A program made the position numbers and the translations under genes. Positions 7,893-42,758 of a stretch of 59,453 nucleotides of DNA are shown here, piece after piece. Position 1 is the first letter of the stretch. The number at the start of each line of letters is the position of its first letter. Source of the stretch: Nitrospirota bacterium. GTDB lineage: Bacteria; Nitrospirota; Thermodesulfovibrionia; Thermodesulfovibrionales; Dissulfurispiraceae. The notes below the pieces were generated by a model. That model searched no databases, was not told where the DNA came from, and worked only from the letters and a program-made list of their open reading frames with translations. The stretch covers positions 1-59,453 of the forward strand of contig JAJYXI010000072.1 in NCBI GenBank assembly GCA_021791055.1. Reading direction: 5' to 3'.

Positions 7893-8438
7893 CTAAATTT
7901 CTCCTTTCAAGGCGCTATTTATGTCGTCTTTTATCAATCTCAAAACATCAGGCAGATTAATGGGCACATCGTTTAATTCCTCCTTAAGCTCATCTGTATC
8001 AAGCCTGTAAGAAAAGCCGTTCCTTTCATAGGATAGCAGAAAATCTATCTCTGGATGTCCGCTTATAAGGACTGCCATTGTAGAACCAATATCGCCAAGT
8101 GGCTTCATGTCTATATGGCTGCGCTGAAACTCTGCCGCAATAACCGTTCCTTTGCCAATCTCCGAGTCTATGAGAAATCTGCCGTTACACTCCTCTGCAG
8201 CCTGAGCAAGGAGAGGTATGCCGAGGCCGAACTTCTTAGCCCTTACAGTCTTTGTTGTAAAAAACGGGTCTTTAACCTTTCTGATGGTCTCTTCGTCCAT
8301 TCCCTTTCCATTATCCCTTATTTTCAGTACAAGCCTATCGGCACTCTTGCTGATAGTTATTTCTATTTCCACTCTTGTTGCGCCTGCATCTATGGAATTC
8401 TCTGCGATATCGAGCATGTGCAATGACAGGTCTTCCAT
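7893..8438 (-). CDS. HATPase-domain ATP-binding protein
   Basis: 181 residues with a histidine-kinase-like ATPase core but no His phosphotransfer domain. The N box is LHMLDIAENSIDAGAT, the G1 box IRDNGKGMDEE, the F box DPFFTTK and the G2 box FGLGIPLLAQAA. The C-terminal 60 residues are outside the ATPase fold. Proteins of this kind occur beside PHP and DRTGG genes in signalling clusters of anaerobes. Whether it is a kinase, an anti-sigma factor or a sensor is unknown. Its start shares one base with the stop of the PHP gene. Confidence 0.88.
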   Translation of the reverse strand: MEDLSLHMLDIAENSIDAGATRVEIEITISKSADRLVLKIRDNGKGMDEETIRKVKDPFFTTKTVRAKKFGLGIPLLAQAAEECNGRFLIDSEIGKGTVIAAEFQRSHIDMKPLGDIGSTMAVLISGHPEIDFLLSYERNGFSYRLDTDELKEELNDVPINLPDVLRLIKDDINSALKGEI

Positions 8439-9187
8439 TACTTCATTACTCCATCACTCCATTCAATTCTTCTCTTCCCCTTAAACGCCAGTGCTATCTC
8501 CTCCAAAGACGGCTCCTCAAGTAAAAACGTGGTAGTCCTTCTGCCTATGTCACCTAAATGGTGGGCATCGGACGATGTTATCCAAGGGATAGATTTATAT
8601 TCTCCGAATACAGCCTCTGCCCTTTCCCTTTTTGTATTATACGAGATTTCGAGGGCGTCGAATGCAATGTCATCCGAAATAAATCCTAATTGAGATATGA
8701 CGCTGAAAATCTCCTTGTCTATATGGCTCGCCACAGCAAGCCCTCCGAAGGAATGAATGGTATCCACAAGTGTTTTGACAGAGAGGTTTGTGGCTCCGAA
8801 AAGGAGCCTTTTGTTGAATCCGAGTATTTCATCCCTTTCATTAACTACAAGCTGATAGCCGCGCAGCTTCTCATCGGCAATACCATCCGGAAGGTTTTTA
8901 TAAACAACCTCCTGAAGATTCATAACCTTATCTATAGAGTCAAAAATGGCAAGCACATGCGCCTCTTCATAGGATGCAATCTCCATTGCAGGCAGTACCG
9001 TAATCCCTTTATCCTGTGCTATCTTCATCGCAATTTCAGCGTTCTCTGCTGAATTGTGGTCTGATATGGCTATTATATCCAGACCATTTTTAACTGCAGC
9101 ATCTATTATCCTGAGGGGGGTCATATCGAGTTCAGCGCAAGGCGACAGGCAGGTGTGGATGTGCAGGTCTGCTACAAATCTATTCAT
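8438..9187 (-). CDS. PHP-domain metal-dependent phosphoesterase
   Basis: 249 residues. PHP metal-binding motifs are present: ADLHIHTCLSPCAE at the start, AISDHNSAEN near residue 42, and the C-terminal TSSDAHHLGDIG. The N-terminal CLSPCAELDM pattern is the type found in PHP genes next to DRTGG and anti-sigma-like genes. It probably hydrolyses a phosphoester or pyrophosphate; the substrate is unknown. It overlaps the DRTGG gene by four bases (ATGA). Confidence 0.9.
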   Translation of the reverse strand: MNRFVADLHIHTCLSPCAELDMTPLRIIDAAVKNGLDIIAISDHNSAENAEIAMKIAQDKGITVLPAMEIASYEEAHVLAIFDSIDKVMNLQEVVYKNLPDGIADEKLRGYQLVVNERDEILGFNKRLLFGATNLSVKTLVDTIHSFGGLAVASHIDKEIFSVISQLGFISDDIAFDALEISYNTKRERAEAVFGEYKSIPWITSSDAHHLGDIGRRTTTFLLEEPSLEEIALAFKGKRRIEWSDGVMK

Positions 9188-11101: not shown

Positions 11102-11214
11102 TTTAATTAATAATACCCTTACTCTAAATATGGAGTCAATTAAGATTTGGTAGTGTTGCATATAAATGCGATATTTGATAAATTACAGAATAAACCCAAG
11201 TCTTGGAGGTGGCG

Positions 11215-11799
11215 ATGAGACGCTTATTTTTTGCTGCTTTAATAATTTTAGGAATGGTCTCGATTATCGGATGTTCTCAAAGGAAGATAGCACATGCACC
11301 TGAACAGCCTGCTGCACAGCCTGAGATAAAAATAGAAGATAAAAAAACAACGACTGACTCAATGGCTGCAAAAGAGCTTCCGAAAGAATCCATAATCGAA
11401 AGGCAGATAACAAAGGCACAGACGGCAGATGCTCAAGCCTCGGTGAAAGAGCTCCAAACAAGGATTCGGGATATTCATTTTGATTTTGACAGGTATGATA
11501 TAAGGGATGAGGCAAAGCCGGTTATGAAGGAAGTAGCATCAATACTTTCAAAAAATAAAGGGATAAAGGTAATAATAGAAGGACATTGCGACGACAGGGG
11601 CACCAACGAATACAACCTCGGGCTCGGAGATAGAAGGGCAATTTCTACAAAGGAATATCTCTTGTCCCTTGGCATTCCATCCGGCAAGATAGAGACAATA
11701 AGCTATGGCGAGGAAAAGTCGCTCTGCACAGAGCAGAGCGAGGAGTGCTGGGCTAAAAACAGGAGGGCACACTTTGTCCTCGTTGAGGGGGGCAAATGA
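11215..11799 (+). CDS. pal: Peptidoglycan-associated lipoprotein Pal
   Basis: 194 residues. The signal peptide ends in a lipobox (VSIIGC, Cys near residue 20), so it is outer-membrane anchored. A linker of about 60 residues follows. The OmpA-like domain reads IHFDFDRYDIR, IIEGHCDDRGTNEYN, LGLGDRRAIS and KNRRAHF, which contact peptidoglycan diaminopimelate. As part of the Tol-Pal system it holds the outer membrane to the wall during division. The ATG at 11215 has GGAGG upstream; a TTG 12 bases before it is less likely. It is followed, with a 4-base overlap, by cpoB. No tolABQR genes lie in the window. Confidence 0.93.
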   Translation: MRRLFFAALIILGMVSIIGCSQRKIAHAPEQPAAQPEIKIEDKKTTTDSMAAKELPKESIIERQITKAQTADAQASVKELQTRIRDIHFDFDRYDIRDEAKPVMKEVASILSKNKGIKVIIEGHCDDRGTNEYNLGLGDRRAISTKEYLLSLGIPSGKIETISYGEEKSLCTEQSEECWAKNRRAHFVLVEGGK

Positions 11800-12755
11800 G
11801 TCAGGAGTCAGAAATTAAAAAAACTCGTTACTCTTTTCACTGCTTACTGCTTACTGCTTACTGCTTACTTGTTTTTATAACCGGCTGTGCGACAACAGCC
11901 GATATGGAGAATCTGAGAGGCAGCGTTACAAATATCCAGATAGAGTCCTTAAATCAAAAAAAGGAAATTGCCCAGATTAAGGCTAATCTTTCGGACATGT
12001 CAAAGGATATAACCACGCTAAAGGAATACTCCCTAAGCGCTGTAAAAGAGAGTCAGTCTTCCCTTGTAATGCAGACATCCGATTTATCCAAAGAGCTGCA
12101 GACACTTAAAGGCCGTTTCGACGAAAACAAGTATTTCATGGACAAGACTATAAAAGACCTGCTCTCAGAGAGGGAGCTGCAGCAGGCCAAGATAGCAGGC
12201 CTCGAAAATGAGCTCAAAGAACTCAGGACAAAAATGAGCAGCCAGCCTTCTGAAAAGAAGGAAGCGACAAATCCCCAAGAAACCCAAAAAGAAGCTCCGC
12301 CTGAAGCAAAGGATTCGAAAGCTGCAGACACTGCTGACCCTCAAAAATTATACGACGATGCACAGATAGACTTTAAAGAAAAACGATATGCTGATGCGAG
12401 GCAAAAGTTCGAAAAATTTGCAAAGGATTTTCCAAAGCATGCGCTGGCTCCAAACTCTTATTTCTGGCTCGGAGAATCCTATTATGCGGATAAAAAATAC
12501 GAAGACGCAATATTGGCATACGAATCCTTCCTGAAGAAATATCCTGCTCACGAAAAGACAAAGGGTGCAATGCTTAAACAGGCATTCGCCTTTGTTGAAA
12601 TGGGGGACAGAAAAACAGGAAAGGTACTGCTCGAAAAGGTTATGGAGAAGTATCCGAATTCCCGTGAGGCTGAACTCGCAGAAAAGAAGATTGCAGAAAT
12701 GCTCTCCAAAAACAAAACGCAGACTAAAAACGGTACAAAGAAAAAGAGGAAGTAA
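11796..12755 (+). CDS. cpoB: Tol-Pal system protein CpoB/YbgF (TPR lipoprotein)
   Basis: 319 residues. The signal peptide has a lipobox (FITGC, Cys at about 31), then a coiled coil (about 40-150), a Lys/Glu/Pro-rich linker and a TPR domain (about 180-305, for example YADARQKFEKFAKDFPKHAL). CpoB works in the periplasm with Tol-Pal to coordinate wall synthesis and outer-membrane constriction. The N-terminal 30 residues are odd: they are encoded by a 7-bp tandem array and a degenerate inverse one (11797-11870). It overlaps pal by four bases; moaA follows after 12 bases. The encoded signal peptide still looks functional. Confidence 0.88.
   Translation: MSQESEIKKTRYSFHCLLLTAYCLLVFITGCATTADMENLRGSVTNIQIESLNQKKEIAQIKANLSDMSKDITTLKEYSLSAVKESQSSLVMQTSDLSKELQTLKGRFDENKYFMDKTIKDLLSERELQQAKIAGLENELKELRTKMSSQPSEKKEATNPQETQKEAPPEAKDSKAADTADPQKLYDDAQIDFKEKRYADARQKFEKFAKDFPKHALAPNSYFWLGESYYADKKYEDAILAYESFLKKYPAHEKTKGAMLKQAFAFVEMGDRKTGKVLLEKVMEKYPNSREAELAEKKIAEMLSKNKTQTKNGTKKKRK
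11797..11870. repeat. Heptamer arrays encoding the CpoB signal peptide
   Basis: AGTCAGG/AGTCAGA (two 7-bp units near 11799-11812), then a spacer, then ACTCGTT and ACTCTTT, and a clean run of four ACTGCTT units (11839-11866) plus ACTT. The second part is roughly the reverse complement of a unit like AGCAGTA, so the segment can fold back on itself. It codes for residues 1-25 of CpoB. Confidence 0.75.
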
Positions 12756-15900: not shown

Positions 15901-17018
15901 AACTCGCATTCGTAAAGAAGAGATTTTCCATTCACGGCGGCGCAGAAAGGTATCTACAAACACTCATAGAATATTTAAAAAAGGCTGGCCATGAAATCCA
16001 TGTATTCGCAAATAAATGGGCTGATGAAGAAGGGATAATCTTTCATAAGGTCAACATATTGCCCTTTAGCTCATTCCTCAGCACGCTGACATTTAATATG
16101 AACACACGGTCACGGGTCACGGGTCACGAGTCACGATTTTACGACTGTGTTGTAAGCTTTGAAAGGACAACCCATCAGGATATATATAGGGCAGGAGAGG
16201 GATGCCATGCAGAATGGCTCGGTATAAGGTCAGCGATTGAGCCGCCCTATAAAAATCTCTCTTTCAAAATAAATCCGCTGCACATCGCACTCCTTAATAT
16301 TGAAAAAGAGCTATTCTCAAAAACCCGACTTATTATTGCAAACTCAAAGATGGTAAAGGATCAGATAATCAAACACTATGCTGTGCCGGAAGAAAGAATA
16401 GCAATAATCTATAATGGCGTTGATTTAAAAAGATTCAGCCCGGAAAATAAATATAAATGGCGCGAGGGTGTAAGGAATAGTCTTAACATATCGGAAGGTT
16501 CAAAGCTGCTGCTCTTTGTCGGTTCGGGCTTTGAGAGGAAAGGGCTGAAAACCCTTATAAATGCCATTCCCTTTGTGAAAGATGATAATATTAAAGTCCT
16601 GATAATCGGCAAGGGCGATATAGAAAAATACAGGGCTTTAGCAGAAAGGCTGGGAGTCCCGGACAAAATTACTTTCCTCGGCACACAAAAGGAAATAGAA
16701 AGGTTCTATGCTGCATCAGATTTATTTGTACTGCCGACACTTTATGACCCTTTCAGCAATGCGACATTAGAGGCAATGGCATCCGGCATTCCGGTAATAA
16801 CGACAAAAAATAACGGCGTGGCCGAACTCATAGAGAATGGACATGCAGGTTTTGTTATGGACGATTTATTCAACTCGCAGGAGTTGGCAGAAAAGATAAA
16901 TCTATCACTGGAGCATCTTGAGCTTATGGGCAAGAAGGCGCGGGAAAAAGCCGAATCCTTTCCAATAGAAAGAGCAGTTGCTGAGTTCACACTTGCGATA
17001 GAACAGCTACGAAAATGA
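15897..17018 (+). CDS. Glycosyltransferase family 4 (WaaG-like)
   Basis: 373 residues, GT-B fold. The N-terminal FSIHGGAERYLQTL and the C-terminal donor site (FVLPTLYDPFSNATLEAMAS, then GIPVITT) contain the E-x7-E motif of retaining GT4 enzymes. SFERTTHQDIYRAGEGCHAEW is close to the WaaG (LPS core glucosyltransferase) signature. The start is TTG overlapping the preceding TGA. Oddly, an in-frame run of four 7-bp units (16109-16136) inserts TRSRVTGHES in a variable loop before SFER. Confidence 0.9.
   Translation: MKLAFVKKRFSIHGGAERYLQTLIEYLKKAGHEIHVFANKWADEEGIIFHKVNILPFSSFLSTLTFNMNTRSRVTGHESRFYDCVVSFERTTHQDIYRAGEGCHAEWLGIRSAIEPPYKNLSFKINPLHIALLNIEKELFSKTRLIIANSKMVKDQIIKHYAVPEERIAIIYNGVDLKRFSPENKYKWREGVRNSLNISEGSKLLLFVGSGFERKGLKTLINAIPFVKDDNIKVLIIGKGDIEKYRALAERLGVPDKITFLGTQKEIERFYAASDLFVLPTLYDPFSNATLEAMASGIPVITTKNNGVAELIENGHAGFVMDDLFNSQELAEKINLSLEHLELMGKKAREKAESFPIERAVAEFTLAIEQLRK
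16109..16136. repeat. Heptamer array GTCACGG/GTCACGA x4 inside a glycosyltransferase
   Basis: Four perfect-period 7-bp units (GTCACGG twice, GTCACGA twice) lie inside the coding frame of the WaaG-like gene. At 28 bp it does not itself keep the frame; flanking bases must compensate. No inverted partner is seen. Confidence 0.85.
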
Positions 17019-18208
17019 GCTTTGATGGAATAAAAAAAATACTTGTCATTAAGCTGAGGCACATCGGCGATGTGCTTCTCGCCACACCTGTATTCAGGGC
17101 ATTGAAGGAGACATTTCCCGATGCACACATAACAGCCCTTGTAAATTCCGGCACAGAGGATATCCTGAAGGGGAACCCTCTGATAGATGAAATACTCGTC
17201 ATGGACAGAAGCGTAAAAAGACTCTCTCCTGTAAAGCGATATGCAAAAGAAATAGCCTTTATCAAAAAAATCAGAGCAAATGGCTTTGATATGACAGTTG
17301 ACCTCACAGGTGGAGACAGGGCTGCAATCATATCCTTTGCATCAGGAGCAAGATATAGGCTGGGATGGAAATCTCAGAAAGGCTTTATTGGAAAAAGATA
17401 TATCTATACCCATTTATCCGAGCCTGATGGGGAAAAACATATGGTCTTACAAAACCTTGAAGTTGTCAGTCAGTTTCGAATAAATACAGAAAATCTTTCT
17501 GTGGATTTTTTTGTTCCAGAAGAAGATAGAATCTATGTCAGGAAAATTCTAAAAGAAAATAGCGTGGATGAAAATGCAAACATTGCACATATTCATCCAA
17601 CTTCGAGATGGCTCTTCAAATGCTGGAAAGACGAATACATGGCTGAGATTATAAAATGGCTGCTTGATAACAATGCAATCGTGATTGTTACATCATCTCC
17701 TGACAGGATAGAAATGGAAAAGGCAAGGAGAATTCTATCTTTAGTTGGGGACAGTCCCGATTCTACGGCTTTGCCCGTAAATCTGGGACAGTCCCCTCAC
17801 GGTTCACGGTTATTAGACTTATGTGGCAAAATAACAATAAAGCAGCTTGGAGCAATATCAGAGGCATCCGATTTGTTCTTCGGCGTTGACTCTGCACCAA
17901 TGCACATTGCTGCAGCAGTCGGAACACCTGTTGTTGCCCTGTTTGGTCCGAGCGGCGCATTTCACTGGGGCCCGTGGGAGAATCAGAAGACAAAAGACAG
18001 AAGACAGAAGACAGAAAAATCACCTTATTCCAACAGGAACGGGATACAGACATTTGGAATACATACGGTTATACAAAGGAATTGGGAATGCATCCCGTGT
18101 GGAAAAGATGGTTGCAAAGGAAGCAAGATAAGCAGATGCCTTGAAGACATCGGTCATGAAGAAGTTAAAAGTATCCTGTCAGAGAGATTGGAAGGGATAA
18201 AGAAATAA
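17015..18208 (+). CDS. GT9 heptosyltransferase-like enzyme (first of four)
   Basis: 397 residues, GT-B fold of the WaaC/WaaF/RfaF type: N-terminal IKLRHIGDVLLATPVFRAL, central HIHPTSRWLFKCW, C-terminal FFGVDSAPMHIAAAVGTPVV and GPSGAFHWGPW, then the Cys-rich end CIPCGKDGCKGS. It transfers heptose or a related sugar to the LPS core at the inner membrane. It is longer than usual because of two in-frame repeat insertions: a 50-bp GGGACAGTCCC hairpin (17747-17796) and an AGAAGAC array (17985-18019). It overlaps the GT4 gene before it by four bases. Confidence 0.93.
   Translation: MSFDGIKKILVIKLRHIGDVLLATPVFRALKETFPDAHITALVNSGTEDILKGNPLIDEILVMDRSVKRLSPVKRYAKEIAFIKKIRANGFDMTVDLTGGDRAAIISFASGARYRLGWKSQKGFIGKRYIYTHLSEPDGEKHMVLQNLEVVSQFRINTENLSVDFFVPEEDRIYVRKILKENSVDENANIAHIHPTSRWLFKCWKDEYMAEIIKWLLDNNAIVIVTSSPDRIEMEKARRILSLVGDSPDSTALPVNLGQSPHGSRLLDLCGKITIKQLGAISEASDLFFGVDSAPMHIAAAVGTPVVALFGPSGAFHWGPWENQKTKDRRQKTEKSPYSNRNGIQTFGIHTVIQRNWECIPCGKDGCKGSKISRCLEDIGHEEVKSILSERLEGIKK
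17747..17811. repeat. Palindromic GGGACAGTCCC element plus TCACGGT repeat
   Basis: GGGGACAGTCCC and GGGACAGTCCCC (17785-17796) bracket an inner stem TACGG/CCGTA, so the 50 bp form a nearly complete hairpin. Two TCACGGT units follow. It is read through in frame in the GT9 gene and adds about 20 residues between the conserved ILSLVG-type strand and LLDLCGKI. Confidence 0.75.
17985..18019. repeat. Heptamer array AGAAGAC x5 inside the GT9 gene
   Basis: AGAAGAC, AAAAGAC, AGAAGAC, AGAAGAC and AGAAAAA follow with strict 7-bp period. It encodes a Lys/Arg/Thr/Gln-rich stretch (QKTKDRRQKTEK) directly after the conserved HWGPWEN, a position where relatives have a short loop. Confidence 0.85.
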
Positions 18209-28266: not shown

Positions 28267-28662
28267 ATGCGTTACGCCATGAAATACGGCACCAGGGCAA
28301 TAAAAAAGGCAAAACTTGAGGTATGGGACAATCCAAATCCGGAGAGAGATTACGAGATTAACATCGCATTCCCTGAATTCACCTGTTTATGCCCACGCTC
28401 AGGGTATCCTGATTTTGCGACCATAAAGATAAATTATGTACCTGATAAAAAAATTATAGAATTAAAGGCGCTGAAGCTCTATCTGAATTCCTTCAGGGAT
28501 GTCCATATATCCCACGAAGAAGTAACAAATAAAATATACGAAGAACTGGAGAAAAGACTTAAGCCGAGATTTCTCGAGGTAATCGGTGATTTCAATCCGA
28601 GAGGAAATGTTAAGACAATTATCCGTGTGGCGAGTCAAAAGGGGAACAAGTCCCCCTTTTGA
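28267..28662 (+). CDS. queF: NADPH-dependent 7-cyano-7-deazaguanine reductase QueF
   Basis: 131 residues, the short (type I) form. It reduces preQ0 to preQ1 in queuosine synthesis. The catalytic Cys and Asp lie in [16 protein letters not shown], and the QueF motif appears as [29 protein letters not shown] is also conserved. No other que genes are present. ATG at 28267 has no clear ribosome site; ATG at 28279 is an alternative. The last residues (QKGNKSPF) are encoded by a palindromic repeat that also serves as a terminator-like hairpin. Confidence 0.94.
28637..28660. terminator. Palindrome between convergent queF and trpF
   Basis: AAAAGGGG and CCCCTTTT (with a one-base offset) flank the loop AACAAGTC and end in a T run. 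The hairpin covers the last codons of queF and faces trpF, which ends at 28673. A related piece (AATCCCCCTTTAGAAAGG) follows at 28664, suggesting this is a degraded copy of the AATCCCCCTTT-type repeat also seen in truB. Confidence 0.6.
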
Positions 28663-28672
28663 AAATCCCCCT

Positions 28673-29287
28673 TTAGAAAGGTACTTTTTTGGCCATCTCA
28701 ATAAATTCCTTCATTTTCTTTAAATCCTTCTTGCCCTTGTCTTCCTCTACTCCGCTGCTCACATCCACGGCATAAGGTCTGACATACATAACAGCCTTCT
28801 CTATATTATCGGGATTAAGACCACCGGAGAGCACAATTCGCCCGAACCTCTTTGCCTCCACGGCAATGTCCCAGTTAAATATCTGGCCTGTGCCGCCAAA
28901 AGATTCTGGAGAATATGTATCAAGCAGAAAAGCAGAACATCTGTATTTTTCGAGAGGCTTTAGATCCGTAAAATCCCTTAACCTGAAGGCCTTTATAACC
29001 CTATGCGAGATATTGCATGAATCAGGTGGCTCATCTCCGTGCAATTGGAGGATATTCACTCCCGTAAAATTTATAATCTCCTTGATCCTTTTTGTATCCT
29101 CGTTCACAAACACTCCGATAGTTATGACCAATGGGGGCAGATAAGATATTATCTCCTTCGCCTTCTCAGGGGTAATACACCGGGGGCTTTTCTCAAAGAA
29201 GACAAATCCGAGGGCATCGGCGCCGTAATCTACCGCAGCCAGCGCATCTTCGAGATTTGTTATGCCGCATATTTTAACCCGAATCAT
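28673..29287 (-). CDS. trpF: Phosphoribosylanthranilate isomerase TrpF
   Basis: 204 residues, TIM barrel. [12 protein letters not shown] carries the catalytic Cys and [15 protein letters not shown] follows. LQLHGDE and [20 protein letters not shown] contain the general acid Asp, and [10 protein letters not shown] is the phosphate loop. Third to fourth step of tryptophan synthesis. It is on the opposite strand from trpB and trpA, with which it shares a 91-bp intergenic region. trpC, trpD and trpE are not in the window. Confidence 0.96.
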
Positions 29288-32205: not shown

Positions 32206-33707
32206 GCTATTATGGCGCAATTAATTACTTATACGGCCTTCAGAAATACGGCATAAAACTCGGTCTCGAAAAGACCGGAATGATATTATCGCAATTGGGA
32301 AATCCACAGATGGACTTCCGTTCCATACATGTTGCAGGCACAAACGGCAAGGGGTCTGTTTCTGCGATGACAGCATCCATTCTGATGGCACACGGCTTCA
32401 GGGTCGGCCTGTTCACTTCTCCCCATCTGGTCAGTTTCACAGAAAGGATAAGAATCAATAATGAACGGATTTCTGAATCGGAAGTGGTAAGCCTAACAGA
32501 AGAAATTAAATCTCAAATCTCAAATCTCAAATCTCAAATCCCTGAACCGACATTCTTTGAATTTGTAACTGCGATGGCATTTCTGTATTTCTCGAGAAAT
32601 AATGTTGACTGGGCGGTTATAGAGACAGGCATGGGAGGAAGGCTGGATGCAACCAATGTAATTATACCGGAAGTCTCTGTTATCACAAAGATAAGTTATG
32701 ACCATAGAGAATTCTTGGGAGAAACACTCACAGATATTGCAAATGAAAAGGCAGGGATTATTAAAAAAGGCATTCCTGTTGTCTCTGCAGGTCAGGAAAG
32801 GGAAGCAGAGGAAGTAATTCTTACAGCAACAGGCAAAAACTCCTCTCCTCTTTTTATATATGGGAGAGACTTTTGCGGAACTTTAAAATCATGTGACCTG
32901 CACGGCATTACTTTTGATTACCATGGCCATGAACTCCAAACTCCAGACTCAGAACTCACGAACTTGTTCGTGCCGCTTGCAGGAGAGCACCAGCTTTTCA
33001 ATGCATGTATAGCAACAAAAGCAGCAATGGTCGCACTACAAAGAACGGTGCACGTGGCATGGGACAAGAGCCATAATTTTAAACGAATTAAACGGCTTGA
33101 ACAATGCATGAACAGCAATAATGGTTCAAATCGTTCAAAAAGTTCAATTCCCCCATTACGCATAGACCTTTTGAAAGAGGGTCTTTCCAACACTCGGTGG
33201 CATGGACGGCTCGAAATAGTAAGCGATGATCCCGTTATTATGATTGATGGCGCGCACAACCCCGATGCAGCAAAGGCATTATCTGAATTCGCAAGAAAAC
33301 ATCTTACTGATTACAATATTATCCTCATAATGGGTATAATGGCCGACAAAGACATCCAAGGAATCATGTCACCCCTCCTGCCCGTTGCCTCTGAAGTAAT
33401 ATTCACTGCACCTAATTACGGCAGGGCTGCATCACCGCAAAAACTTGCAGAGATCGCATTACACATGGGTTTTTCTTCAAAGGTTTCAAATTCTGTGAGA
33501 GAGGCTATTGAGATGGCATTGTCAGAGTTTGGAGTTAAGAGTTCAGAGTTAAGAATGAAAAGAGAGAATGTAGATTCTGCAATTGCTAAACTCCAAACTC
33601 TAAACTCTAAACTCATTTTAATCACCGGCTCTTTCTACACCATAGGAGAGGCCAAAGAGATATTAGGCGAAAAGGCTGTTCTCGGCAGCTTGAGGGAAAC
33701 GCTATGA
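32202..33707 (+). CDS. folC: Folylpolyglutamate/dihydrofolate synthase FolC with repeat insertions
   Basis: 501 residues; the family is usually about 420-440. Mur-ligase fold: P-loop HVAGTNGKGSVSAM, GMGGRLDATNVI, SYDHREFLGETL, IAGEKAGI-like IANEKAGIIK, and the C-terminal MIDGAHNPDAAKALSEF. It adds glutamate to folates. The extra length is explained by at least five in-frame short-unit arrays (32511, 32932, 33085-33150, 33524, 33588) that fall in loops, not in catalytic motifs, so the enzyme is probably active. It overlaps accD and lptD by four bases each. Confidence 0.93.
   Translation: MSYYGAINYLYGLQKYGIKLGLEKTGMILSQLGNPQMDFRSIHVAGTNGKGSVSAMTASILMAHGFRVGLFTSPHLVSFTERIRINNERISESEVVSLTEEIKSQISNLKSQIPEPTFFEFVTAMAFLYFSRNNVDWAVIETGMGGRLDATNVIIPEVSVITKISYDHREFLGETLTDIANEKAGIIKKGIPVVSAGQEREAEEVILTATGKNSSPLFIYGRDFCGTLKSCDLHGITFDYHGHELQTPDSELTNLFVPLAGEHQLFNACIATKAAMVALQRTVHVAWDKSHNFKRIKRLEQCMNSNNGSNRSKSSIPPLRIDLLKEGLSNTRWHGRLEIVSDDPVIMIDGAHNPDAAKALSEFARKHLTDYNIILIMGIMADKDIQGIMSPLLPVASEVIFTAPNYGRAASPQKLAEIALHMGFSSKVSNSVREAIEMALSEFGVKSSELRMKRENVDSAIAKLQTLNSKLILITGSFYTIGEAKEILGEKAVLGSLRETL
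32511..32538. repeat. Heptamer array TCTCAAA x4 in folC
   Basis: Four identical 7-bp units TCTCAAA, then TCC. It encodes KSQISNLKSQI between the conserved TEEI helix and PTFFEFVTAMAF. No nearby inverted partner. Confidence 0.9.
32932..32959. repeat. Heptamer array AACTCCA-type x4 in folC
   Basis: AACTCCA, AACTCCA, GACTCAG and AACTCAC follow in strict 7-bp period. They code for ELQTPDSELT in a loop before NLFVPLAGEHQ. Confidence 0.85.
33085..33150. repeat. Inverted nonamer-like repeat (TTGAAC/GTTCAA) in folC
   Basis: CTTGAACAATGCATGAAC is followed by GTTCAAATC, GTTCAAAAA and GTTCAATTC (9-bp period). The two halves are inverted relative to one another. The segment encodes a Ser/Asn-rich stretch (MNSNNGSNRSKSS) that has no place in the FolC fold and lies just before the conserved GLSNTRWHGRLE. 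Confidence 0.65.
33524..33615. repeat. Inverted heptamer array pair in folC
   Basis: AGAGTTT, GGAGTTA, AGAGTTC and AGAGTTA (33524-33551) are followed after 36 bases by AAACTCC, AAACTCT, AAACTCT and AAACTCA (33588-33615). The second array is the reverse complement of the first unit family, so the segment can form a long hairpin. It is read through in frame near the C-terminus of FolC. Confidence 0.88.
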
Positions 33708-35689
33708 AACAGGCGAGAGGCTATAGGCGAGAGACTATAGGGGATTATTTACTGTTTCTCATCTTTATCCTATTGCCTATTACCTATTGCCTCTTGCCTG
33801 CCTCAAGTTGGGCTACCACAATTACAGCAGACCATCTTGAATACTTCAAAGAAGAAGATAAATATGTGGCAACAGGCAATGTAAGAATAGAGGAGAAAGA
33901 TTCCGTATTAAATGCAGATAAGGCTGTCCTCTATCAAAAGACATCTGACGCAGAAGCGATAGGGAATGTTATTTTTGAGGATGCTGAAACATTTATAAAT
34001 ACTGAACGGGCTGAATTAAACCTCGACACCAAGACAGGCAGACTCTACAATGCGGTTATTTTCTTTAAAAAAGGCAACTACTGGGTTAACGGCGAAAATG
34101 TACAAAAGATAAAGGAAGACCACTATTATGCAAACACAGCAACATTCACCACTTGCGATTCAGAGCCGTCTTCAAGCCCTGACTGGTGTTTTAAGGGAAG
34201 CGATGTAGACATAATAGTCGGGAAAAAATTTACTGCAAAAAATGTAACATACAGGGTCAAAGGTCTGCCTATTCTATACTCTCCATATGCATGGGCACCG
34301 GTAAAGGCAGAGCGAGAAACAGGATTTTTATTTCCGGTCATCGGCAATAGCTCAACAAAGGGATTTCAGTTCAGCCCCACATTCTTCTGGGCAATAGATG
34401 AAAGCAAAGATGCAACATTCTATCTTGATTATTACAGCAAAAGGGGAATCGGAACAGGCATCGAGTACAGATACCTCGATTTCAATGACAGAGGCAGGTG
34501 GTATATATATCACCTCAAAGACAGGGAGCTGAAAAAGGACTTCTATGAATTTAAAGGAATGCATGAGCATCAGCTCGGAGACATAAAAGGATATGTGGAT
34601 ATAAACTATGTAAACCATGAAGATTTTTACAAAAAATACGGATATAAAAGGGACCTCAGAATCCAGAGATTCCTCCAGTCGACAGGAGAGATCTCAGCGC
34701 CGCTGCCAAATTCAAGGCTATACCTCCTCGGCCAATACTGGATAGACCTGAAAGAAAGCAATGCCCATGTACCCCAGAGACTGCCTGAATTAGGCTATGT
34801 TGTAAATCCTGTGAACCTCGGCCCTCTTATGTTTATGATGAGTTCAAGTTTTACTAATTTCTCGAGGGAAAAGGAGATAAGGGGGCAGAGGGTTGATATT
34901 AATCCGACACTGTCTTATTCCTTCGGAGAGACAATACCTATATTCCAATCCCTTTCTCTCAGGGAAACGGCTTATAATCTGAAAAATGAGACGCCCTATA
35001 AGTCATCTCCTCACAGGGAGACTTTTGAATACAGGGCAAATGCATTAACAAGATTTATCAAGCATTATGAGTCTTTTACGCATATTATACAACCTTCTGT
35101 TTCTTATACCTTTATCCCTGAAACCCATCAACTCCCGGTTTTCGACTCCACAGAGCTTTTTGACAAGACTTCGGTGGCGAGTTTCTCCATATATAACAAC
35201 CTTGCATTTAAAAACTTCTCATTAGCTGCAACAGTAGGCCAGTCTTTAAATTTCAATGCAGGAGACAGGCCATTATCTCTTACAACATTAAACGCATCCC
35301 TCAGAGGGCCTTTTACCCTGACCTTTGATGCATCATACGACTTTAATAAAGGCAAAACAGAAACCATAAATTCTGGACTCAGCGTAAAGGTAGCGGACAA
35401 GACTACTGTCAGCATTGGAGAAAGATATGCAAGGGCAAGTAAGTTAATGCAGTATACAGCAGGTATCAATTCTGTTCTAACTAAAAGATGGTCTGTAAAT
35501 GCAAACATATGGTATGACGCAAAGGGCGCTGGCTTGAGGGATTCCACACTTAAAACCACTTATACCCAGCAGTGCTGGGCCGTTAACATACTGCTGACAA
35601 GGAAGCCCGGCGATAACATAAGGCCTCCTGAATACAACTTCTTGGTATTTATTGAATTAAAAGGGGTAGGAATACTCAAGGTTCTATGA
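33704..35689 (+). CDS. lptD: LPS-assembly protein LptD
   Basis: 661 residues. After a signal peptide (to about residue 36, LPASSWA) comes an LptA-like beta-jellyroll (ITADHLEYFKEEDKYVATGN, AVLYQKTSDAEAIGNVIFED), then YWVNGENVQKI and TTCDSEPSSSPDWCFKG with two Cys of the disulfide type, and a long beta barrel with alternating residues. It inserts LPS into the outer leaflet with LptE. The signal peptide is encoded by an inverted heptamer array pair (33711-33803). It overlaps folC and truB by four bases each, and fits the LPS operon upstream. Confidence 0.93.
   Translation: MKQARGYRRETIGDYLLFLIFILLPITYCLLPASSWATTITADHLEYFKEEDKYVATGNVRIEEKDSVLNADKAVLYQKTSDAEAIGNVIFEDAETFINTERAELNLDTKTGRLYNAVIFFKKGNYWVNGENVQKIKEDHYYANTATFTTCDSEPSSSPDWCFKGSDVDIIVGKKFTAKNVTYRVKGLPILYSPYAWAPVKAERETGFLFPVIGNSSTKGFQFSPTFFWAIDESKDATFYLDYYSKRGIGTGIEYRYLDFNDRGRWYIYHLKDRELKKDFYEFKGMHEHQLGDIKGYVDINYVNHEDFYKKYGYKRDLRIQRFLQSTGEISAPLPNSRLYLLGQYWIDLKESNAHVPQRLPELGYVVNPVNLGPLMFMMSSSFTNFSREKEIRGQRVDINPTLSYSFGETIPIFQSLSLRETAYNLKNETPYKSSPHRETFEYRANALTRFIKHYESFTHIIQPSVSYTFIPETHQLPVFDSTELFDKTSVASFSIYNNLAFKNFSLAATVGQSLNFNAGDRPLSLTTLNASLRGPFTLTFDASYDFNKGKTETINSGLSVKVADKTTVSIGERYARASKLMQYTAGINSVLTKRWSVNANIWYDAKGAGLRDSTLKTTYTQQCWAVNILLTRKPGDNIRPPEYNFLVFIELKGVGILKVL
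33711..33803. repeat. Inverted heptamer arrays encoding the LptD signal peptide
   Basis: AGGCGAG, AGGCTAT, AGGCGAG, AGACTAT and AGGGGAT (33711-33745), a spacer of about 23 bases, then CCTATTG, CCTATTA, CCTATTG, CCTCTTG and CCTGCCT (33769-33803). The second array is built from the reverse complement of an AGGCAAT-like unit. The first arm codes for the Arg-rich ARGYRRETIG, the second for LPITYCLLPA. Confidence 0.85.
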
Positions 35690-41273: not shown

Positions 41274-42758
41274 TCAAATCTTTTTGGTCTTGACTTTGCC
41301 TTTTGTCTTGCTGACTTTTTTGGCAGATTTTTTGTTTGACTTGCCGGACTTCTTTCTGGATATCTTTTTACTATAAGAAACCTTTTTAGCAGACATCTTG
41401 TCATCTATATCATCATAATATTTGCCTCTTGGAGGTATCTTTATCTCCTCGCCTGCATCAAGGCTCTCAATCCCGCTCATGGAATTCAGCGCAAGGATAA
41501 CATTAACAGGGACGCCTGTCTTCTTTGCTACCTTCTTAAGATTATCTCCATTTTTAACCCTGTAAGTATCTATGCTGAATCTCTCTTCGACAGGAATCTC
41601 ATTAAGATTTTCAATGAAATTTTCTTTGCTTCCCTGAGGTATTCTAATAGTATAGTTTGAAACATTTGGAGGTGTGCTCCATCTCCTCAGTTCAGGATTC
41701 AACTCTCTTATATCTTCCACTGCACTCTCTGCACACTCTGCAATCACTTCTATATCAACAGGCGAATTAAGGGTTACTTCATCATACTCCAGAGGCTCGT
41801 GATATGCAAGGTCATGGAATCCGTATTCCTCGGGTGTAGAGGCTATCATTGAAGCTGCAATATATCTCGGCACATACTCCTTTGTCTCATTCCTTATCTG
41901 TTTTGTATTAAGGAGCGACCAGTAGTCCTCTGCGCCAGTTCTTTTAAGTGCCTTCATGATCTTTCCCTCCCCTGCATTATATGCAGCGAGGGCGAGCTTC
42001 CATGAGCCAAACATATTATACAAATCCTTAAGATACTCCGCTGCTGCGTGGGTGGACTTGACAGGGTCTTTTCTCTCATCCCTCCACCAGTCAATCACAA
42101 GCCCGTATCTCTTGGCTGTGGAGGCTATGAACTGCCACGGCCCCACCGCCCTTGCAGGTGAATAGGCATTCAGATTAAACCCGCTTTCCACTATTGGAAG
42201 AAATACCAGTTCCTCAGGCATCCCCTTTTCCCTCAGGACATCCTGCATTATCTCCACATATTTTGCAGACCGCTCGAGCCAGACAGAGAATCTCTTTTTA
42301 ATCTTGTCCTTAAAAAGGGTTATATTTTTCTCTATGGCCTTTATGGCTGTTTCATTCGATTTGTAGGATATACCCAGAGGTGCGTTCGTATTTTTATCTT
42401 GATTGTCATTGAATGAATTTGCAGTATCATGTCCTTCCCCTGTCTTATCGATGTTCGGCTGGTTGGTTAAGGTCTCAGGCGTTTCAGAAGTTTTTTGGGA
42501 TATTGTGCTATGTTTATCAACTGACAGCTCTGCAACAGTGATTACTGAATTATCGGCCTTCTGGGTTTTCAGTTCCGGACTCTGAGCTGGCAAATCAGCG
42601 CTGCCTTTGCTTACATCAGCATGGGCAGGAACAACAAGAAAACATAGCACCGAAAACAGAACATAGAAAACAGAGCATAGAACTTTTTTGTCTGAGTTTT
42701 TAGTTTTGATTTCTGGTTTCTGATTTCTGACTTCTGACTTCTGGCAGTCTCCATTCAT
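41274..42758 (-). CDS. Membrane-bound lytic murein transglycosylase, MltD-like, with LysM
   Basis: 494 residues from ATG at 42758. The signal peptide ends at about residue 45 (FLVVPAHA). An SLT domain follows with catalytic Glu in FLPIVESGFNLNAYSPARAV, GPWQFIASTAKRYGL and ALAAYNAGEGKIMKAL. One LysM (YRVKNGDNLKKVAKKTGVPV) binds peptidoglycan. The last 45 residues are a Lys/Ser-rich basic tail (KKVSYSKKISRKKSGKSNKK), unusual for this family. The signal peptide is encoded by inverted heptamer arrays (42639-42744). A longer frame from 43022 lies opposite rnfB and is not credible. Confidence 0.9.
   Translation of the reverse strand: MNGDCQKSEVRNQKPEIKTKNSDKKVLCSVFYVLFSVLCFLVVPAHADVSKGSADLPAQSPELKTQKADNSVITVAELSVDKHSTISQKTSETPETLTNQPNIDKTGEGHDTANSFNDNQDKNTNAPLGISYKSNETAIKAIEKNITLFKDKIKKRFSVWLERSAKYVEIMQDVLREKGMPEELVFLPIVESGFNLNAYSPARAVGPWQFIASTAKRYGLVIDWWRDERKDPVKSTHAAAEYLKDLYNMFGSWKLALAAYNAGEGKIMKALKRTGAEDYWSLLNTKQIRNETKEYVPRYIAASMIASTPEEYGFHDLAYHEPLEYDEVTLNSPVDIEVIAECAESAVEDIRELNPELRRWSTPPNVSNYTIRIPQGSKENFIENLNEIPVEERFSIDTYRVKNGDNLKKVAKKTGVPVNVILALNSMSGIESLDAGEEIKIPPRGKYYDDIDDKMSAKKVSYSKKISRKKSGKSNKKSAKKVSKTKGKVKTKKI
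42639..42744. repeat. Inverted short-unit arrays encoding the MltD-like signal peptide
   Basis: On the plus strand, TTTCTGG, TTTCTGA, TTTCTGA, CTTCTGA and CTTCTGG (42710-42744) form a clean 7-bp array. About 20 bases away, GAAAACA recurs every 14 bp interleaved with TAGCACC, GAACATA and GAGCATA (42639-42680). Read on the coding (minus) strand, the first array gives QKSEVRNQKPEI and the second gives VLCSVFYVLFSVLCFLV. Confidence 0.82.

Follow-up and report, generated by a model that had tools for sequence, protein, structure and literature searches.

Does a tandem array of a seven-nucleotide unit at the 5' end of a gene act as an on/off switch, or is it simply part of the encoded protein? This question is raised by a 59,453-nt stretch of DNA (the window) from a Nitrospirota bacterium of the Dissulfurispiraceae (assembly GCA_021791055.1, contig JAJYXI010000072.1, positions 1 to 59,453 of the forward strand), in which a cpoB/ybgF-like lipoprotein gene carries the unit ACTGCTT four times in a row close to its start codon. 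We consider it very probable that this array, like its many relatives in the genome, serves as protein building material, with hydrophobic units used as signal peptide cores, rather than as the on/off switch which an earlier note on this DNA had suggested.

The array in the cpoB gene

The cpoB gene (11796..12755, plus strand; ATG at 11796, TAA ending at 12755) codes for 319 amino acids and matches TIGR02795 (YbgF) with 118 bits at a cut-off of 90.1. The full-length CpoB equivalog NF008068 (PRK10803) scores 85 bits, which is below its cut-off of 383, and therefore we use the label CpoB/YbgF-like for a protein related to, but not of, the form defined by PRK10803. A cpoB match is present in all 40 genomes searched (own genome included), several of these matches being weak and partial.

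The array (11839..11869, plus strand) was found by Tandem Repeats Finder (TRF) and an exact-run scan. Four perfect units span positions 11839-11866 and the period continues to 11869, giving 4.4 units over 31 nt (TRF score 62, 100% matches). The four units thus stand as first described, while of the ACTT said to follow them only ACT is periodic. In translation the array corresponds to residues 15-25 (HCLLLTAYCLL), which run into the lipobox ITG-C31. A lipobox has the form [LVI][ASTVI][GAS]C after a hydrophobic region (h-region); residues 28-31 (ITGC) match this motif, and all 14 of the 14 orthologues aligned have the cysteine (codon 11886..11888, plus strand) at this position. Translation of the array is almost certain, because the next in-frame ATG lies past Cys31 and a start there would forfeit the lipobox. 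Judged from the sequence, the best reading is that the array codes for the hydrophobic core of a lipoprotein signal peptide, which would make this a repeat-built signal peptide, and the CpoB peptide is probably processed as a lipoprotein. The proposed signal core leading into the lipobox is thereby upheld, as is a polar start coded by a heptamer pair upstream: GAGTCAG occurs twice at 11798..11811 (plus strand) and forms part of the polar n-region.

The gene lies directly 3' of pal (peptidoglycan-associated lipoprotein; open reading frame 11203..11799, plus strand, 198 amino acids; TIGR02802 with 129 bits, above the cut-off of 125.35), and 4 nt are shared between the stop of pal and the start of cpoB.

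Period-7 arrays across the genome

The cpoB array does not stand alone: in this lineage 7-nt tandem arrays form a population spread over the genome. When periods from 3 to 30 were compared in 391 kb of the source genome (G000, a metagenome-assembled genome of the Thermodesulfovibrionales), exact runs were found 18 times for period 7 (at least 14 matches at lag 7), four times for period 8 and never or once for the others. This exceeds chance, since no exact period-7 run appeared when the sample was shuffled with an order-3 Markov model. A scan with a tolerant score over 630 kb yielded 41 arrays of period 7, seven of period 8 and none or one at each of seven other periods. Among the relatives the tolerant scan detected arrays in samples of G002, G003, G005, G012, G015 and G034 and one each in G001 and G027 (G001, G002 and G003 are congeners of the source genome); the 13-20-kb samples of G004, G008, G014, G018, G023, G032 and G037 contained no period-7 arrays.

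Most of these arrays lie within coding regions. A simple gene finder places 28 of the 41 inside predicted genes, five at N-termini, two at C-termini and six outside genes, and two of the latter six (cpoB and a lipoprotein gene on contig 12) in fact lie in signal peptides, the gene finder having missed the starts of these genes. The host genes of the internal arrays include those for MutS, HemC, a FolC-like ligase and glycosyltransferases, some of them with Pfam or PDB matches; further hosts we take to be RadA-like and KdtA-like. Within the window this group is represented by AAATCTC x4.7 in the FolC-like Mur ligase gene (32508..32540, plus strand; polar peptide KSQISNL), GGTCACG x4 in a family-4 glycosyltransferase gene (16108..16136, plus strand) and AAGACAG x4 in a family-9 glycosyltransferase (heptosyltransferase) gene (17987..18016, plus strand).

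Two other repeats were seen in passing. An 8-nt array (TCCATTAC-like, window 8434-8463) lies across the junction of two predicted minus-strand genes. A second repeat family (TCCCCCTTT...) occurs at window positions 28651-28679, in a C-terminal insert of HemC (L075) and in a KsgA-like gene (L001); it seems to enter genes, coding for PPLTKGGQEGG-like inserts, and the HemC example is a 12-residue insert that the G001, G002 and G015 orthologues lack.

Hydrophobic and polar units occupy different places

Since 7 and 3 share no factor, a heptamer array is translated into the same seven-residue peptide in all three frames. The 28 internal arrays tend to be polar, with a mean hydropathy of -1.09 and a maximum of 0.44. 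The clearly hydrophobic ones, on contig 79, in an OEP-type gene (L115), in cpoB and in the contig-12 lipoprotein, are all located in signal peptides, which were judged by eye from hydropathy and cleavage-like motifs. The array in MutS corresponds to a 12-residue insert relative to the E. coli-type MutS structure PDB 7ai6. Polar units sit in protein loops, which are probably located at the surface.

The unit ACTGCTT, which codes for the hydrophobic peptide cycle TAYCLLL, was followed into other genomes. All three ACTGCTT arrays of the source genome are in signal peptides. Within the order the unit forms arrays at 19 places in 11 of 176 genomes, eight of these places being signal peptide cores (three in G000 and one each in G005, G007, G035, G112 and G118), and the other 11 lie apparently outside genes or antisense to one. 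A search of 395 genomes, many of them again of the order, added 13 new places in five genomes outside the order, and six of them are signal peptide cores (G287, G355, G390), six non-signal places belong to G199 and one in G231 is of uncertain class. At none of the 32 places was the array seen in sense within a mature protein. The polar unit AGAAGTC, used as a control and found in 35 of 176 genomes, behaves differently: with one locus taken from each of 30 genomes, 22 are internal and seven N-terminal, and the remaining one is unclassified; its array precedes a hydrophobic segment and a Cys resembling that of a lipobox. The difference in internal places between the two units is significant (Fisher p 1.3e-7). 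Signal peptide enrichment holds for the hydrophobic unit and not for the arrays in general. For all arrays together such an enrichment (6 of 41, p 7e-4) was obtained only by a crude rule on a sample which included stretches picked for their arrays, and it was discarded.

Orthologues keep the site and change the unit

Comparison of orthologues shows that the site of an array can be kept when its unit is changed. At the cpoB array position G000 has ACTGCTT x4.4 and G001 has CTGTCTA (= ACTGTCT) x4.4, each over 31 nt; the array is decayed in G003, and G002 and G034 have other units. In hemC the array is common to G000, G001 and G002, and in G012 another unit fills the same 33 nt; the gene of G015 is exactly 21 nt, i.e. 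three units, shorter, and the orthologue search gave no hemC match in G003. The leader of the contig-12 lipoprotein contains differing repeat-like stretches in G001, G002, G012 and G015, all of them under the strict threshold, and in none of the five contig-79 orthologues does the signal peptide contain a period-7 array by the strict measure. A further gene family, presumably LarC-like by its motif, was seen to have different heptamer units at the same site in G000 (L079, 10053-10078) and in three other genomes (L262, L277, L280).

These replacements bear on the idea that the arrays are regulatory DNA or RNA elements, i.e. protein-binding sites or elements acting in translation, a role that has been proposed for the paired sites of Geobacter and for the TAACTGA repeat of Beggiatoaceae. 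A specific binder would hardly permit orthologues to differ in their unit at the same site. Moreover, most of the arrays (28 of 41) are situated within genes and not between them, and RNA structure in the cpoB leader, looked for as a candidate, had to be rejected: its folding is no better than that of shuffled sequences (z 0.02), and an Rfam search of positions 11600-12100 returned nothing with an E-value of 1 or less. We regard a regulatory role as very improbable.

In a wider survey of 105 cpoB loci, 81 with a lipobox were retained and 24 were dropped (no usable match, no lipobox Cys, or duplicates). In eight of the 81, a period-7 array lies no more than 90 nt ahead of the Cys; elsewhere in the genes (63,672 nt) there is none. 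For the eight array-bearing rows parsimony needs at least seven changes on a tree built quickly from the 81 sequences; many forks of this tree are weak, and therefore independent gains were not counted. One could suppose that the repeats are a coincidence of composition, as the codons typical of hydrophobic signal peptide regions (CTG, CTT, TTA, TGC) might alone yield repeats, and self-match is indeed raised in signal peptide regions at most lags of 3-14. However, the arrays in the cpoB leaders have period 7 (8 genes) or 8 (1 gene) and none of the other ten periods between 3 and 14, the same units also form arrays outside genes, and related units occur in loops. Such a coincidence is extremely improbable.

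Several observations weigh against our interpretation of the arrays as protein building material. The signal peptide calls rest on hydropathy and cleavage-like motifs assessed by eye, and the position classes carry errors, as the missed starts of cpoB and the contig-12 lipoprotein demonstrate. In that part of the source-genome sample which was not picked for its array (without the window, L061 and L118), only two of 28 arrays are in N-terminal hydrophobic segments (p 0.17). Of the 32 ACTGCTT places 18 are not in signal peptides, and six of those belong to one genome, G199. Finally, G001, G003 and G015 lack the mutS insert, the net difference being 12 nt, and because this is not a multiple of 7 some sites have changed in other ways; likewise the kdtA orthologues, except that of G001, differ by two, six or more residues. 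A general rule that insert lengths are divisible by 7 nt, which holds for hemC, fails for mutS and kdtA and was abandoned.

On balance, the use of arrays as building material is best explained as follows. The genome harbours a population of 7-nt arrays in which only changes by three units (21 nt, seven residues) preserve the downstream frame, and arrays very probably persist where the coded peptide is tolerated. Polar units would be tolerated in presumed surface loops and in the n-regions of signal peptides, hydrophobic ones such as ACTGCTT (TAYCLLL) only in signal peptide cores, and the cpoB array very probably serves as such an h-region. Over time the site is retained and the unit replaced, most simply by slippage spreading a mutated unit, which is the probable cause of the swaps, or else by re-invasion.

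The proposed phase variation of cpoB

According to the earlier note, slippage by one unit could act within the population as a switch for the synthesis or export of CpoB. Its frame arithmetic is correct. The unit is not a multiple of three and lies in the 5' coding region, so that the frame is lost on a one-unit change: with 2, 3, 5, 6 or 8 units stops follow after 25-70 codons and CpoB would be truncated, and, as three-unit steps keep the frame, only 1, 4 or 7 units are in frame. A perfect array is also a suitable substrate for slippage, and switching by heptamer frameshift is known from neuO (PMC13001214). Nevertheless, phase variation of cpoB is not supported. G000 and G001 each carry 4.4 units, despite the change of the unit itself. 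Four units appear to be at the short end of what switching loci carry: complete genomes have 3 to 53 heptamer repeats in neuO, most commonly 20 (PMC13001214), and the hmw1 loci in the text consulted have 11-24 (for Haemophilus heptamers see PMC2651432). Similar arrays are found in mutS and in housekeeping genes such as hemC and folC, and bamD-like and pyrH-like genes have them in their leaders; those standing in frame in hemC, folC and the bamD-like and pyrH-like genes weigh against a switch because the off state should be harmful. Because the arrays form a genome-wide population, a dedicated switch in cpoB is also unnecessary. Altogether we think it quite improbable that the array is a switch.

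Paired arrays with the purine-rich member first

With a looser threshold, which gave 77 + 43 + 40 arrays in 1.4 Mb, 22 neighbouring arrays within 100 nt of each other were found where about two are expected. In 20 of these 22 pairs the array with the higher purine content is on the 5' side (p 1.2e-4), and the order is still seen in 13 of 15 pairs (p 0.007) when the seven pairs judged to be in signal peptides are left out. Because the polarity of purine followed by pyrimidine is unchanged by reverse complementation, such a pair reads polar and then hydrophobic on either strand. The signal peptides of BamD-like, LptD-like and MltD-like proteins fit this arrangement. In the window, the LptD-like gene (33704..35689, plus strand; PF04453 LptD with 96 bits) has a signal peptide made from a purine-rich (33711-33741) and a facing pyrimidine-rich array (33769-33799), and that of the SLT/LysM (MltD-like) gene (41274..42758, minus strand; PF01464, PF01476) is made from a polar (42710-42743) and a hydrophobic array (42637-42682). 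Another pair, purine-rich and then inverted, is situated near the 3' end of the FolC-like Mur ligase gene (33525..33614, plus strand). In cpoB the two GAGTCAG units are the candidate purine-rich partner; being only two, they are under the pair threshold and weak when taken alone.

Perhaps, and this is a guess, the array pair is a mobile element. In G002 an identical 48-nt array-bearing stretch was seen twice in L057 (9192-9239 and 10692-10739), with a near copy in L059 (9635-9682), and this repetition may hint at a dispersal of arrays. A dispersed purine-then-pyrimidine element would be a ready-made signal peptide (Lys/Arg/Ser/Gln/Glu followed by Leu/Phe/Cys/Ser), and by landing at gene starts it could supply or replace an export signal. 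That the lineage repeatedly rebuilds signal peptides in this manner (cpoB, LptD-like, BamD-like, TolB-like, MltD-like and an unnamed lipoprotein) is a possibility which we regard as rather doubtful.

Relation to known repeats

Heptamers are described as the commonest long repeats in bacterial genomes, and the peptide cycle coded by the TAACTGA repeat of Beggiatoaceae has already been pointed out (PMC4679880, PMC4692102). With such dispersed heptanucleotide repeats (heptameric long simple sequence repeats, TAACTGA of Beggiatoaceae, those of Calothrix) our arrays share the 7-nt tandem structure at many loci and the dominance of period 7. However, those described are mostly intergenic and of one or few unit types, whereas here many unit types occur, mostly in genes, and form signal peptide cores. 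Four tandem heptanucleotides lying within and between genes are known from Geobacter metallireducens, as are the 'global regulator binding sites' of Geobacter, hepta- and octanucleotide arrays mostly paired on opposite strands (PMC2700814). The unit CTTCTGA seen here agrees with MTYCTGA, the consensus of their class 3. The Geobacter elements were named putative regulatory sites; in the available text of PMC2700814 the term 'signal peptide' occurs 0 times and coding use is not raised. The neuO and hmw1/2 loci resemble cpoB in their seven-base units and, for neuO, in the frame shift on a change of unit number, but their arrays are longer and variable, switching has been shown and single genes are concerned, not a genome-wide population. 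The tandem repeats of Borgs are likewise in-gene DNA repeats that add peptide repeats to proteins; judging from the available text (PMC9879509), their repeat peptides are mostly disordered, the unit lengths in de novo repeat genes are multiples of three, and the repeats are carried by extrachromosomal elements of archaea. A literature search, which most subscription journals lay outside, gave no description of repeat-built signal peptides or of in-gene heptamers of this kind. We regard the present case as a variant of the dispersed heptanucleotide repeats.

Meaning for the lineage

Repeats that look non-coding can, by this account, turn into working parts of proteins, and one 7-nt process would provide both loops in enzymes and cores in export signals. 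That the units divide by hydropathy suggests selection acting on the places in which each of them can be tolerated. The process also offers a way, open to testing, in which signal peptides could arise and be turned over fast. In such genomes a heptamer array at the start of a gene is not by itself a phase switch.
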